NCBI GenBank assembly: GCA_017446095.1
Contig: JAFSRN010000008.1
Span: 124,001 to 188,000, forward strand
DNA: 64,000 nt
Source: Eubacterium sp.
Lineage (GTDB): Bacteria > Bacillota > Clostridia > Oscillospirales > Acutalibacteraceae
Direction of reading: 5' to 3'
Position 1 is the stretch's first letter. Every line of letters starts with the position of its first letter. The position numbers and the translations under genes are program-made. Of the stretch, positions 1,101 through 54,728 are shown one piece after another. The notes below the pieces were generated by a model. That model was not told where the DNA came from. It saw only the letters and a list, made by a program, of their open reading frames with translations, and searched no databases.

Positions 1101-2501
1101 ATGAGCGAAAAAACAAAGCAACTCAAAGATATGCTGTTTAACAAAAAGGAAAACGCAATCGACTTTATGTCCACAGATGAACTTGCCGTTTGCGACGAAT
1201 TTTGCGAGGGCTACAAGGAATTCCTTTTTGAATGCAAAACCGAGCGCGAAGTTGCCGCGTGGGTTGAGAACATTGCCGTTAACAACGGTTTTGTTAAGTT
1301 TGACGAATTCGGCGAGCCGCTTGCCGCAGGCGACAAGGTTTACTACGCAAACAGAGGCAAGGCGATTATCCTTTGCGTTAAAGGCAAAAGAAGCATTAAA
1401 GACGGCGTTCGCATTTCCGCAGCGCACATCGACTCGCCGCGCATCGACCTCAAGCAATGCCCGATTTATGAGCAGGACGGCTTGGGACTGTTTAAAACAC
1501 ACTACTACGGCGGCATTAAAAAGTACCAGTGGACGGCTATTCCGCTGTCGCTGCACGGCAGAATCTGCAAAAACGACGGTACCTTTGTTGACGTAAAAAT
1601 CGGCGAAACGGCAGACGAGCCGAAGTTCTGCATTACCGATATTCTGCCGCACCTCGGCAAAGAGCAGATGCAGCGCAAAACCAACGAAATCGTGCAGGGC
1701 GAAGAGCTTAACGTAGTTATCGGCTCGCGCCCGTTCAAGGACGACGATGAAAGCGAGCGCATCAAACTCAACCTGCTTTCACTCCTCTACGAAAAATACG
1801 GCATTGTTGAGCGCGACTTCCTGTCCGCCGAGCTTGAGCTTGTGCCTGCGTTCACGGTTGATGATATCGGCTTTGACCGCTCGCTCATCGGCGGCTACGG
1901 CCACGACGACAGGGTTTGCGCATACCCCGCGCTGCAGGCGATTCTTGATATTGACGAAGCGCCCGAATACACCGCAATCACCGTGCTGACAGACAAGGAA
2001 GAGGTCGGCTCGGACGGTAACACGGGACTCAACTCATCGTACCTGCGCTACTTTATTGACGACCTTGCAAGGCTTGAGGGCTTTGAGGGCAGAGATGTGC
2101 TGCGCAACTCGAAGTGCCTGTCCGCAGACGTTAATGCCGCGTACGACCCGACCTGGGCTTCGCCTTTTGAAAAGAACAACGCAAGCTTTGTTAACAACGG
2201 CGTTTGCGTAACGAAGTTTACAGGCGCATACGGCAAGAGCGGCACGTCCGACGCGTCCGCGGAATTTGTCAGCTGGGTTAAGACTCTGCTTGAGGAAAAC
2301 GATGTTCTGTGGCAGAGCGGCGAGCTCGGCAAGGTTGACGCAGGCGGCGGCGGAACCGTTGCTATGTACGTTGCAAATATGGATGTTGACACCATCGACG
2401 TCGGCGTGCCGGTACTCTCAATGCACGCACCGTACGAAATAGTGGCAAAAACCGACGTGTACTATGCGTACAAGGCATTCTTCACCTTTTTCACTAAATA
2501 G
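1101..2501 (+). CDS. M18 family zinc aminopeptidase
   Basis: A 466-residue protein of the usual M18 (aspartyl aminopeptidase/aminopeptidase I) length. Metal-binding signatures are present: AAHIDSPRID with His109/Asp111, the DKEEVGSDG stretch with the catalytic Glu pair, the GYGHDDRVCAY segment and the C-terminal LSMHAPYE His ligand. It should remove N-terminal residues from peptides in the cytosol and form a large oligomer, as known for the family. GGGGG lies 8-9 bases before the ATG. The gene directly follows the Sua5-CoaE fusion, so one operon is likely. The exact substrate preference cannot be read from sequence. Confidence 0.9.
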   Translation: MSEKTKQLKDMLFNKKENAIDFMSTDELAVCDEFCEGYKEFLFECKTEREVAAWVENIAVNNGFVKFDEFGEPLAAGDKVYYANRGKAIILCVKGKRSIKDGVRISAAHIDSPRIDLKQCPIYEQDGLGLFKTHYYGGIKKYQWTAIPLSLHGRICKNDGTFVDVKIGETADEPKFCITDILPHLGKEQMQRKTNEIVQGEELNVVIGSRPFKDDDESERIKLNLLSLLYEKYGIVERDFLSAELELVPAFTVDDIGFDRSLIGGYGHDDRVCAYPALQAILDIDEAPEYTAITVLTDKEEVGSDGNTGLNSSYLRYFIDDLARLEGFEGRDVLRNSKCLSADVNAAYDPTWASPFEKNNASFVNNGVCVTKFTGAYGKSGTSDASAEFVSWVKTLLEENDVLWQSGELGKVDAGGGGTVAMYVANMDVDTIDVGVPVLSMHAPYEIVAKTDVYYAYKAFFTFFTK

Positions 2502-2508
2502 CATAAAT

Positions 2509-2538
2509 GTAGGGGCGGGATTCCTATCCCGCCCTTTT
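2509..2538 (+). terminator. GTAGGG-type hairpin acting as terminator of the aminopeptidase gene
   Basis: GTAGGGGCGGGATT continues into the complementary ATCCCGCCC and then TTTT. The hairpin sits 8 bp after the stop codon and belongs to the dispersed GTAGGG repeat family described elsewhere in this window, which here seems to have been recruited as a terminator. Confidence 0.6.
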
Positions 2539-2550
2539 GTCGTTATATGA

Positions 2551-3258
2551 TTATTTGCAGAAATAGTGGTTGCCGATAATCTTGATTACCGGTCTTGAGC
2601 GCATCCACGCGTTGCTGGTTTTCGCCGGGTTGTAGTAGTAAATCGCGCCGCCTGTCGGGTCCCAGCCGTTGATTGCGTCCTGCGCCGCGCGCTTTGCGGA
2701 TTCCGCAACAGGCTGATACCAGTTTGAATCGTACACGCAGGAAAATGCGCCGTTCTGGTACACCACGCCGCTGATTGAATCTGGGAACGACGGGTGCGCA
2801 ACACGGTTGAGAACTACCGCGCCTACCGCAACCTGCCCCTCGTAACTCTCGCCGCGCGCCTCGGCAGAGATAACCTTTGCAAGCAGGTTAACCTCTTCCG
2901 CCGTGTACTTTCCGCTGCCCGACGATCCCGACGATGAGCCGCCCAAACCAAGGTACAGCAAGGTCTGCGGTCCTGCAATACCGTCAACCGTTATTCCGCA
3001 GTTGCGCTGAAATGCGGTTACGGCGTTTTTGGTCTGCGTGCCGTAAATGCCGTCCACCGAACCGTTGTAGTAGCCAAGGCTTTTAAGCTTGGTCTGAATG
3101 TTCTTAACCTCTGTGCCCGTCGAGCCGTAGCGCGACAGCGCGAAGGTGCTTTTTTCGGCAAACACCGCCTCACTTACGGCAAACGACGCGCCCACAGCGG
3201 CAACCGCAAGCAGCAGCGCCGCGGCGATGCACATAATTCTTCTGCTTATTCTCGTCAT
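2551..3258 (-). CDS. sleB: Spore cortex-lytic enzyme, SleB-like
   Basis: The start is placed at the Met before TRISRRIM, which has GGGGG 7 bases upstream; the longer open frame has no such signal. The protein is 235 residues: a signal/anchor segment at about 5-28, a peptidoglycan-binding domain (LSRYGSTGTEVKNIQTKL to about residue 95), a short Ser/Gly linker, then a cell-wall hydrolase_2 domain with SAEARGESYEGQVAVGAVV, whose Glu is the catalytic residue of this family. SleB enzymes cleave muramic-delta-lactam cortex peptidoglycan during germination. The start overlaps the stop of the upstream small membrane-protein gene by ATGA, indicating translational coupling. YpeB, the usual partner, is not next to it. 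Confidence 0.85.
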   Translation of the reverse strand: MTRISRRIMCIAAALLLAVAAVGASFAVSEAVFAEKSTFALSRYGSTGTEVKNIQTKLKSLGYYNGSVDGIYGTQTKNAVTAFQRNCGITVDGIAGPQTLLYLGLGGSSSGSSGSGKYTAEEVNLLAKVISAEARGESYEGQVAVGAVVLNRVAHPSFPDSISGVVYQNGAFSCVYDSNWYQPVAESAKRAAQDAINGWDPTGGAIYYYNPAKTSNAWMRSRPVIKIIGNHYFCK

Positions 3259-4777: not shown

Positions 4778-4803
4778 TAGGGGCGATTTGTGAATCGCCC
4801 GCC

Positions 4804-52485: not shown

Positions 52486-53955
52486 ATGAAACGAATTTGC
52501 TTCACATTTTTAGCGTTTGTTATGCTGCTTACAACACTTTCTGCAAGCATAACGGCACAGGCGGCAGATATTTCGCCGCCCACGTTTTCAACCGACAGCG
52601 GAGTTTATACAGACAGTAATACAATTGTGCTTCGCTCGGGCTCACTGCTCAACACCGTGTATTATAAGGTATATGAATACGGTTTAAGCAATTTTAAAGG
52701 CGCGCTAAAGCAGGATACAACAAAGTACAGCTTGCCCTTTAAGATCACCGAGTCCTGCTACATAGAGGCGTGGTCAGAGCGCGGCGACGAAACGAGCGAA
52801 GTTGTCACTAACCGCTACTATATTCAGTATTCAAGCGACGAGGGCAGATTTACTGTTGACGAAAACGGTGTGCTCACCGCCTACACGGGCAACACGCCAA
52901 ACCTTGTTATACCTGACGAGGTGGACGGCGTACCCATAACCGAAATCGGTGAGTACTGCTTTGCACAATACGACAACGACCACCGAGGGATAACGTGGTA
53001 TAACTTGGATGATTATTCAAATTATCTTAAGACAGTAACCCTTCCCGACACTGTTACAAAAATCAACAGAGATGCGTTTACCGCCTGCGTTAACCTGACA
53101 GACGTTTACGGAGGTAATATTCAGCGCGTCGAAACTAACGGATTTATCAAGTGTGAAAGGCTTAAAAATATTGATTTGTCGCATATAACAACGCTGGGTA
53201 AAAGTGCGTTTTCAGATACCGGGCTTGAGCAAATTGACAACGACAGCATTACAAATATAGACAATGGCGCTTTTTCAGGATTAGAGTGCGAAACTATATC
53301 ATTGCCTAATCTTACAAGTTGCGGAACAGGTGCGTTTTCGTATTGCGCTGACTTGAAATATATCAATTTGCCTAAACTAACGCAGTTTACAAGGCGCATG
53401 TTTATGTTCACATATCCTGTTATGATTAACGCGCCATCGCTCACAGAAGTGGACAAAAACGCTTTTTATCATAACGATTATGCGCCGACAGGTGATTATG
53501 CACCTATCGGCATACACGCGGCAAAACTTGCAGGGGCGCTCGGCGGCTCAATCAGGCTGTCGGACAGCGGACTGCGTTTCGGCTTTAACTGGGACAACAG
53601 CACCGATTTGGAATCATTTTTCGGCGAAAATATCGAATACGGTTTTATTTACGCATATGAGGAAACAGACGATTTGATGTTTAACCAGATGAAACAGGTT
53701 GAAAACGGCTACAGCAAAGTTGCAACAAAGCATACCGACAAAGACGGCAAAACCTCGTTTAACCTTGTGTTCACTGATATACCCAAAGTAAACTACGACA
53801 CAAAAATTTCCGCAAGGGCATATATCAGGATATATAACTGGTACTTTTATTCCGATATTCTCACGCGTTCCTTTAACGACGTGGCACAGGCGGTGCTTAA
53901 CGACCCGACAGTTGACGACGGCATCAAAGCGCAGCTGCAACAACTACTCGAATAA
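52486..53955 (+). CDS. Secreted BspA-like leucine-rich-repeat protein
   Basis: 489 residues with a signal peptide (MKRICFTFLAFVMLL to AQA, about 27). A beta-rich module follows (about 30-115), then FTVDENGVLTAYTGNTPNLV and IPDEVDGVPITEIGEYCFA, the usual entry to BspA/TpLRR repeats. Degenerate LRR_5 units run to about 330, and an unassigned C-terminal domain runs from 345 (GGSIRLSDSGLRFGFNW). Such proteins adhere to host or microbial surfaces. AAGGAGG lies upstream. The small-peptide genes follow within 55 bp of its stop. Confidence 0.87.
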   Translation: MKRICFTFLAFVMLLTTLSASITAQAADISPPTFSTDSGVYTDSNTIVLRSGSLLNTVYYKVYEYGLSNFKGALKQDTTKYSLPFKITESCYIEAWSERGDETSEVVTNRYYIQYSSDEGRFTVDENGVLTAYTGNTPNLVIPDEVDGVPITEIGEYCFAQYDNDHRGITWYNLDDYSNYLKTVTLPDTVTKINRDAFTACVNLTDVYGGNIQRVETNGFIKCERLKNIDLSHITTLGKSAFSDTGLEQIDNDSITNIDNGAFSGLECETISLPNLTSCGTGAFSYCADLKYINLPKLTQFTRRMFMFTYPVMINAPSLTEVDKNAFYHNDYAPTGDYAPIGIHAAKLAGALGGSIRLSDSGLRFGFNWDNSTDLESFFGENIEYGFIYAYEETDDLMFNQMKQVENGYSKVATKHTDKDGKTSFNLVFTDIPKVNYDTKISARAYIRIYNWYFYSDILTRSFNDVAQAVLNDPTVDDGIKAQLQQLLE

Positions 53956-53965
53956 CCGTACAACC

Positions 53966-53991
53966 GTAGGGGCGATTCACGAATCGCCCGC
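53966..53991. repeat. GTAGGG-family hairpin
   Basis: GTAGGGGCGATTCACGAATC then GCCCGC, located between the LRR gene and the first small-peptide gene. Confidence 0.8.
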
Positions 53992-54009: not shown

Positions 54010-54126
54010 ATGAAAGAAAACTACGAAAAACCCGATACACAAATTGAGGAATATCAAACAGCAGACATAATCACCACCAGCACCGTCGGTCTTGACGATG
54101 AAGGCTGGATTAACAAGTGGTATTAA
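54010..54126 (+). CDS. Small peptide 1 with NKWY C-terminus
   Basis: 38 residues, MKENYEKPDTQIEEYQTADI at the start and LDDEGWINKWY at the end. AAAGGA is 10 bases before the ATG. The acidic N-terminal half shares a pattern with the peptide encoded 56 bp downstream (MKExYxxPxTxxEEYxxxDI, then TxS and DD). The last residues D-x-E-G-W-I-N-K-W-Y are nearly repeated at the end of the third gene (DGDGFVNKWY). No Cys, no membrane helix. I know no family for it. It looks like a leader-plus-core precursor or a secreted signal, but no processing enzyme is adjacent. Confidence 0.6.
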   Translation: MKENYEKPDTQIEEYQTADIITTSTVGLDDEGWINKWY

Positions 54127-54131
54127 AAATT

Positions 54132-54159
54132 GCAGGGAGCGATGACCACATCGCTCCGC
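54132..54159. repeat. GCAGGG variant of the hairpin family
   Basis: GCAGGGAGCGATGACCACAT then CGCTCCGC, between the first two small-peptide genes. Confidence 0.75.
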
Positions 54160-54181
54160 TAAATAAAAAAGGAGAAAAGCT

Positions 54182-54298
54182 ATGAAAGAAAAATATTTTA
54201 CGCCCCTAACCGAGCTTGAAGAATACGAGCCCGTTGACATTCTCACCGCAAGCGGCGACGTACAGGACGACGACAATGACGTACCGTTCGGCAGTTAA
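54182..54298 (+). CDS. Small peptide 2, same leader pattern
   Basis: 38 residues, the same length as peptide 1: MKEKYFTPLTELEEYEPVDI, then LTASGDVQDD and DNDVPFGS. AAAGGAG lies 6 bases upstream. The leader matches peptide 1 at 11-12 of the first 20 positions, while the C-terminal end differs completely and lacks NKWY. Its last 23 bases overlap the start of the third gene, indicating coupling. Confidence 0.6.
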   Translation: MKEKYFTPLTELEEYEPVDILTASGDVQDDDNDVPFGS

Positions 54299-54728
54299 TA
54301 TAAAGGTTGCCGTTATTCTGGCACTTGCACTCTCCCTGCTTGCAGGTGTTTTTATCGCCTGCAGGTCAGGGGAAACCCAACGGGCAAAAGGTTCTGCGCA
54401 AAGTACAACAAAAGCCGCCACAGGCACTACTGCGCCGCAAACTGCAAAGCGTTTTGACACCACACGCGAAAGTGAAATTATCGTCACTTTTGATGACACA
54501 ACAGCGCAACGCAAAAAGGCGGATAATGATGTAAAATTCCGCACTGCAAAAAGCACAGCCGCGCAAAAAACATCCGCCAAACGCCGCAGCAGTGTTGCCG
54601 CCGTAAAAAGCAACGAGCCTGCATCTGTCACAGAGCGCGAGCAATCTACCGCAGCCGAAACAGAGCAGAGCGAAACGCAAACCCGCGTCGTCACAGACGG
54701 CGACGGATTTGTTAACAAATGGTATTAA
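54276..54728 (+). CDS. Membrane-anchored low-complexity protein ending in NKWY
   Basis: 150 residues from MTYRSAVNIK. One hydrophobic segment (VAVILALALSLLAGVFIAC) is followed by a Cys that could be lipidated, although the lipobox (FIAC) is imperfect. A Thr/Ala/Lys/Glu-rich, probably unfolded stretch follows, and the end is TDGDGFVNKWY, close to the end of peptide 1. It would display that C-terminal motif on the cell surface. I recognise no family. The start choice is uncertain; a longer frame begins at 54216 inside peptide 2. Confidence 0.55.
   Translation: MTYRSAVNIKVAVILALALSLLAGVFIACRSGETQRAKGSAQSTTKAATGTTAPQTAKRFDTTRESEIIVTFDDTTAQRKKADNDVKFRTAKSTAAQKTSAKRRSSVAAVKSNEPASVTEREQSTAAETEQSETQTRVVTDGDGFVNKWY

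Follow-up and report, generated by a model that had tools for sequence, protein, structure and literature searches.

The best explanation of the two small genes P1 and P2 as a whole, which we consider probable, is that they encode precursors of RiPPs resembling the Linear Polyphosphorylated Peptides (LPPs; Popov et al., Nat Commun 2026, PMC13381572), serving the surface protein encoded next to them. What is new is the wiring, i.e. LPP-like precursors encoded downstream of secreted-protein genes whose products have a C-terminal beta-sandwich domain in common. Sequence comparison shows a peptide family with its leader, its gene linkages, its co-occurrence with modification enzymes and a pairing of tails in the cassette of the window, the window being the whole stretch of 64,000 nucleotides analysed here. 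It belongs to a 2.09-Mb draft genome of 22 contigs and 97% completeness (G000). The features of the cassette are:

52486..53955, forward strand: gene of a secreted LRR protein, 489 aa (Pfam LRR_5, 1.9e-24)
53482..53952, forward strand: C-terminal domain of the LRR protein, the hallmark of secreted proteins linked to the peptides; predicted to fold as a beta-sandwich with two helices at its C-terminus
53970..53989, no strand: copy of a dispersed palindromic repeat, within the 54-nt gap that separates the LRR gene from P1
54010..54126, forward strand: P1, precursor-like peptide, 38 aa, MKENYEKPDTQIEEYQTADIITTSTVGLDDEGWINKWY
54082..54123, forward strand: tail of P1, TVGLDDEGWINKWY, with the end DDEGWINKWY, of the same kind as the end of the anchored ORF3
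54182..54298, forward strand: P2, precursor-like peptide, 38 aa, MKEKYFTPLTELEEYEPVDILTASGDVQDDDNDVPFGS
54276..54728, forward strand: ORF3, likely lipoprotein, 150 aa, ATG start, overlapping P2 by 23 nt

The preliminary description had reported two 38-residue ORFs with ribosome-binding sites, and these are present, with GGAA and GGAG located 8 and 7 nt before the ATG of P1 and P2, respectively. The leader of P1 comprises approximately residues 1-24 and contains Y5, P8, D19 and S24; P2 has the same leader followed by the tail GDVQDDDNDVPFGS. Scans of both peptides against Pfam and NCBIfam gave no match. Compared codon by codon with the orthologues in genome G072, P1 has 21 identical codons, 12 synonymous and 5 non-synonymous changes among its 38 codons, and P2 has 21, 11 and 6, respectively. 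The gap between the LRR gene and P1 amounts to 54 nt in the window and to 1-2 nt in G072, G006 and G002. The palindrome GGGCGATTCACGAATCGCC located in this gap yields 8 matches at six places of the window (positions 4782, 16558, 52299, 53970, 58364 and 58451), the shuffle mean being 0.00. By eye, another, different palindrome is seen between P1 and P2.

P1 and P2 belong to a family of peptides of about 32-60 residues with a conserved leader and a variable, mostly acidic tail. In 40 peptides chosen by profile score and not by pattern, the leader Tyr, a Pro at Y+3 and an Asp at Y+14 are each present in 40/40, and a Ser is found at Y+19 in 39/40, the remaining peptide having its Ser one residue later; ten of the 40 carry an additional Ser in the tail. 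The tails vary by locus and include VPFGS, DGSDGW, DIPWGS, GDDDE, INKWY and others; the comparison of leaders and tails across the peptides bears out the earlier proposal that the two behave as separate modules. The leader motif is not absolute, as the peptide of G493 carries Leu in place of Pro, and more distant family members vary more. A search for homologues of the leader, set as a test in the preliminary description, returned peptide matches at E <= 0.01 in 63/80 genomes of the same genus (G000 counted) and in 8/68 genomes of the same family or order with a five-sequence profile; with a 42-sequence profile, 22/391 genomes of a draw from the class matched at E <= 1e-4 (G000 counted), with up to twelve copies per genome. 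G000 itself encodes five such peptides according to the first search and a weak sixth found with a richer profile (E 0.005), which sits 12 nt downstream of a 907-aa gene whose product looks secreted. By eye, we noticed a second peptide class behind large proteins of another type at eight loci (L042, L044, L045, L046, L059, L061, L062 and L070), where a dockerin-like protein precedes the large protein and, in 5/8 loci, an LCP-like gene comes next on the opposite strand.

The protein encoded upstream of P1 consists of a signal peptide (by eye), a chitobiase-C-like segment (judged from relatives), BspA-type LRRs and the C-terminal beta-sandwich domain, and corresponds to that part of its relatives which follows the subtilase (Peptidase_S8) domain. 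G072, G006 and G002 have the same arrangement, with P1, P2 and an ORF3 carrying the WY tail downstream of the orthologue of the LRR gene. We scanned nine upstream proteins: four combine subtilase and LRR domains (Peptidase_S8 and LRR_5), three of these four with CHB_HEX_C_1; one has LRRs with List/InlB-type repeats, one InlB-type repeats only, and three were unmatched. Of 41 loci (40 fetched ones plus the window), 34 have a gene, large or cut by the contig end, that encodes a secreted-looking protein and ends at most 250 nt upstream of the peptide; such a gene is missing directly upstream in the other 7, of which L076 lies at a contig edge. In a second set, 32/40 loci have a gene of at least 300 aa on the same strand at this upstream position; that of L263 looks like a histidine kinase, leaving 31/40 loci with and 9/40 without a secreted-protein gene. 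The spacing between peptide and secreted-protein gene is mostly 1-90 nt.

The linkage was also approached in reverse by searching named genomes with the C-terminal domain alone. This gave 37 loci in drafts titled Clostridia, Clostridiales, Eubacteriales, Oscillospiraceae, Ruminococcaceae, Eubacteriaceae or Eubacterium, besides two drafts titled Bacteroides sp.; several of these contigs are probably identical to contigs of the first set. A peptide follows the domain gene within 300 nt in 31/36 loci with enough sequence, while as a control an ORF fitting the loose peptide pattern was found for 7/226 other genes of these loci, and one fitting the strict pattern for 2/226. A WY-tail protein lies within 900 nt of the domain gene in 18/36. 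In other families, too, peptide-linked proteins have a domain that matches the window-type one (E 2e-11), and two other types of upstream protein match it weakly in profile comparison, with 49% and 1% probability. The predicted fold is no more than a common FnIII/Ig/CBM-like sandwich. Synteny in G072, G006 and G002 together with the domain linkage makes the LRR protein a likely partner of the cassette peptides, in agreement with one of the two candidates named in the preliminary description.

ORF3, the third gene described earlier as overlapping P2 and ending in DGDGFVNKWY, is present; its start is most likely the ATG at 54276, whereas the ORF list gives the TTG at 54216. By eye, its N-terminus is hydrophobic with a lipobox-like ...VFIAC at its end, and its middle is a low-complexity stretch rich in Ser, Thr and Lys; an internal ADNDVKF precedes the C-terminal end. 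The same layout is seen in its orthologues and relatives. The ends of P1 and ORF3 represent one motif, their alignment score being reached by 0/100 shuffles; as had been proposed, this tail occurs both free and anchored to the membrane in the window cassette and in its orthologues. P2 had been described as keeping the leader but not NKWY. It does have a partial counterpart in ORF3, since DDNDVPF of P2 resembles the internal ADNDVKF, with a score reached by 1/100 shuffles. With lipoproteins from other loci, the P2 tail scores equally well in 11/20 cases, and a locus-specific pairing of P2-like tails with the internal motif of the lipoproteins was accordingly rejected.

The suggested search for the WY end gave, with the DNA pattern G[WF][IV]x[KR]WY-stop, 37 matches in 27/80 genomes of the same genus against a single match in the remaining 68 genomes; the control with the pattern reversed gave 0 and 4 matches, respectively. 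With the pattern used, an internal motif such as ADNDVxF, resembling the P2 tail, occurs in 20/21 WY-tail proteins near a peptide, and 10/25 non-duplicate WY-tail protein loci have no adjacent peptide. A second tail pair of unrelated sequence (TP[YF]IP) occurs in two genomes, the peptide ending NSTPYIPIP being accompanied by a lipoprotein-like protein with HDTPYIPIP in G029 or HDTPFIPVD in G037, with the two genes on opposite strands; G001 contains a weak third pair. Exact tail sharing between peptide and neighbour across the family (7/147 entries) does not rise above the control (139/4180) and was rejected as a general rule of the family, and we therefore regard tail sharing as a feature of some cassettes. 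WY tails were also seen in other arrangements. In L079 (G058, 1501-3024) an LRR protein, its C-terminal domain cut short, is fused in frame to a WY-tail protein, which may be real or an assembly effect, and in L081 (G063, 1381-1524) a 47-aa ORF is hardly more than a signal sequence and the tail ATDSDGFINKWY. In G105, a genome of another family, a secreted protein (L148, 10106-11215), SLH-like by eye and ending in EDKDGDGWIDGWY (final residues DGDGWIDGWY), adjoins a kinase-RRE-SpI-ABC cluster.

The YxxP leader suggests the involvement of an RRE. A standalone RRE was found in 37/37 peptide-positive and 4/12 peptide-negative genomes among the first 49 of the genus, two peptide-negative genomes with only weak RRE matches inside long frames being counted as lacking it. 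Compared with solved RRE-leader complexes, the RRE profile matches TbiB1 (6e-11) and TfuB1 (9e-8) as well as LppB (1e-6), i.e. the RREs match TbiB1 better than LppB. In G000, RRE genes lie on contigs C3, C6 and C7 and kinase genes on C1 and C6; genes for NTP_transf_5 (PF14907) lie in RRE neighbourhoods on C6 and C7, so that C6 carries all three together, and on C13 the archaeal-type signal peptidase gene (SpI) is next to that of an MsbA-like ABC exporter. None of these machinery genes is near P1 and P2 on contig C2, the set being spread over five other contigs. The SpI of G000 matches the archaeal type TIGR02228 (7e-8), its exporter neighbour MsbA_rel (3.5e-64) and the kinase ScmC (1.3e-4) and HprK_rel_A (0.06), and the kinase of G193 matches HprK_rel_A (1.5e-4), all of these matches staying below the curated cut-offs. 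Family matches of the kinase are weak and a Pfam scan of it gave no match; GTGKxTH is invariant in eight kinase sequences; likewise, Ser, His and Asp are invariant in five sequences of SpI, whose match is below the curated cut-off. Profiles of kinase and SpI revealed no clear relative in the PDB, the best sensible hit of the kinase being PEP carboxykinase (E 0.31). At four loci (L168, L175, L177 and L180), the kinase gene stands alone, and the gene after it is lipoprotein-like and has an SGWxYxVN motif. On C7 of G000, genes for a FAD-dependent oxidoreductase, an RRE and NTP_transf_5 stand in a row (L134, 7788-10601), possibly another RiPP pathway.

Kinase and SpI co-occur with the peptide. Within the genus the kinase is present in 57/63 peptide-positive vs 6/17 negative genomes and SpI in 59/63 vs 6/17; outside the genus the figures are 8/8 vs 9/60 for the kinase and 7/8 vs 10/60 for SpI. 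Four of the six kinase-less peptide-positive genomes of the genus are less than 80% complete. Because genomes of one genus are related and not independent, we ran the kinase test again on the draw from the class, where the kinase is present in 21/21 peptide-positive vs 9/44 negative genomes (p 2e-10), the 44 of 369 negatives tested being the listed ones of the same family plus the earliest entries of the draw. Linkage of the peptide to the enzymes, together with an NTP transferase or an ABC exporter, is seen in other genera and families. G360 has secreted protein, peptide, kinase, RRE, SpI and NTP_transf_5 (PF14907, 2.7e-34) in this order; the order is secreted protein, peptide, one further gene, kinase, RRE, SpI, ABC in G193, and secreted protein, peptide, kinase, RRE, SpI in G493, and in G097 and G107 the peptide is near kinase-RRE-SpI. 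The conserved leader and the linkage to and co-occurrence with RiPP enzymes thus bring substance to the earlier suggestion of a precursor-peptide system.

The same data allow us to weigh other readings of the peptides. They could be unmodified companions, e.g. escorts binding the C-terminal domain before export, with the leader as a binding surface and the RiPP genes present by coincidence; the close linkage to the domain-bearing gene (31/36) and the window cassette having no machinery nearby would fit, but the co-occurrence with kinase, RRE and SpI, repeated for the kinase in the second genome set, the existence of peptide-kinase-RRE-SpI clusters and the role of YxxP as the RRE-binding motif in complexes discussed in PMC13381572 render this unlikely. 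We consider it quite improbable that the tails act as secreted signals sensed by AgrC-like GHKL kinases with the lipoprotein as decoy or receptor: by eye, GHKL-type kinase genes lie ahead of the secreted-protein gene at three loci (L039, L047, L063) and ahead of the peptide at L263, yet no such kinase is located upstream of the LRR gene of the window and none was noticed at most listed loci. Lasso peptide precursors, suggested by the YxxP leader, the lasso-type RRE and several tails starting with TSG and having an Asp a few residues later, are very improbable and were set aside here, as the B2 leader peptidase (PF13471) has no match in G000 and some tails are very short, e.g. LDQLGDDED; PF13471 was found in 2/49 genomes of the genus, where the frames measure 403 and 437 aa and one match exceeds the cut-off. 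The AI-2E-type membrane protein, the other partner named in the preliminary description, is a scarcely credible exporter of the peptides and was rejected on synteny: its gene comes after the cassette only in the window and G072 and is absent at the cassette in G006 and G002, which makes it a mere neighbour. That the ORFs are untranslated, with their small size as sole support, is practically negligible in view of mostly synonymous changes, conserved gene order and profile matches in many genera.

For P1 and P2 as LPP-like precursors we propose a model in which a separate RRE protein would bind the YxKP leader, the HprK-like kinase would add one or more phosphates to Ser24, the archaeal-type signal peptidase would cut the leader off near Ser24, the MsbA-like ABC exporter would release the acidic tail and the NTP transferase may make further additions; we infer all these chemical steps as well as translational coupling, export and a binding role of the tail. 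The position of the precursors directly behind genes for secreted surface proteins suggests that each protein is probably co-produced with its own peptide. As ORF3 carries a tail of the same kind on the membrane, the lipoprotein and the free peptide probably share one binding partner, in the simplest case the LRR protein, and the peptide would set whether this protein stays at the cell or is released. Close linkage and, in some cassettes, an anchored tail copy make the neighbouring secreted protein the first candidate partner. We tentatively extend this to a surface-protein maturation system in many Clostridia, a possibility rather than an expectation, in which an LPP-like peptide would be co-made with each domain-bearing secreted protein, dock on it outside the cell and in some cassettes compete with a lipoprotein of the same tail, the phosphorylated RiPP deciding whether a protease or LRR adhesin is held or released.

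The biological roles of LPPs are stated as unknown in PMC13381572. With LPP-like precursors tied gene by gene to subtilases and LRR proteins, the question of role becomes testable: does a modified peptide act on its neighbour protein? The data also suggest that, in gut and rumen bacteria, such RiPPs can be encoded by numerous dispersed precursor genes whose enzymes are located elsewhere in the genome, an arrangement that gene-cluster mining would overlook.

In our literature searches we found no description of the cassette, with PMC13381572 being directly relevant; the earlier statement that there is no named family stands for the cassette, and the precursors resemble the LPPs of that paper. 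There, a kinase puts several phosphates on one core Ser and the leader, of the consensus YxxPxVLxHQxIxFETxxS, is removed by a peptidase together with the RRE. The likeness comprises short precursors with YxxP in a conserved N-terminal leader and a variable C-terminus, found in P1 and P2, as well as a discrete RRE, an HprK-like kinase, an archaeal-type SpI, an MsbA-like exporter and an NTP transferase. Of the full LPP consensus only the Tyr, the Pro and the Ser are common, the Ser being placed 19 residues after the leader Tyr here and 18 in LPPs, and the middle VLxHQxIxFET is absent from our peptides. We do not file the peptides as LPPs because the consensus is shared in part, the RRE is not closest to LppB and P1/P2 are unclustered.

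Paeninodin-like phosphorylated lasso peptides, compared via PMC13381572, likewise have an RRE, an HprK-like kinase and an NTP transferase; they differ by a WxxP leader in place of YxxP, a B2 peptidase and a macrolactam synthase. By NCBIfam name, the HPr-rel-A and SynChlorMet (Scm) cassettes compare through weak matches of the kinase (TIGR04352, TIGR04249) and the RRE (TIGR04353, TIGR04248), all below curated cut-offs. In published LPP systems, precursor and enzymes form one cluster, whereas P1 and P2 lie apart from the enzymes of G000 and the precursors in the genus of the window are many, scattered and unlinked to enzymes. The main text of PMC13381572 contains none of the words Clostridia, lipoprotein, subtilase, leucine-rich and secreted protein; unlike LPPs, the precursors described here come, by record titles, from gut and rumen Clostridia and are linked to secreted LRR or subtilase proteins and to WY-tailed lipoproteins.
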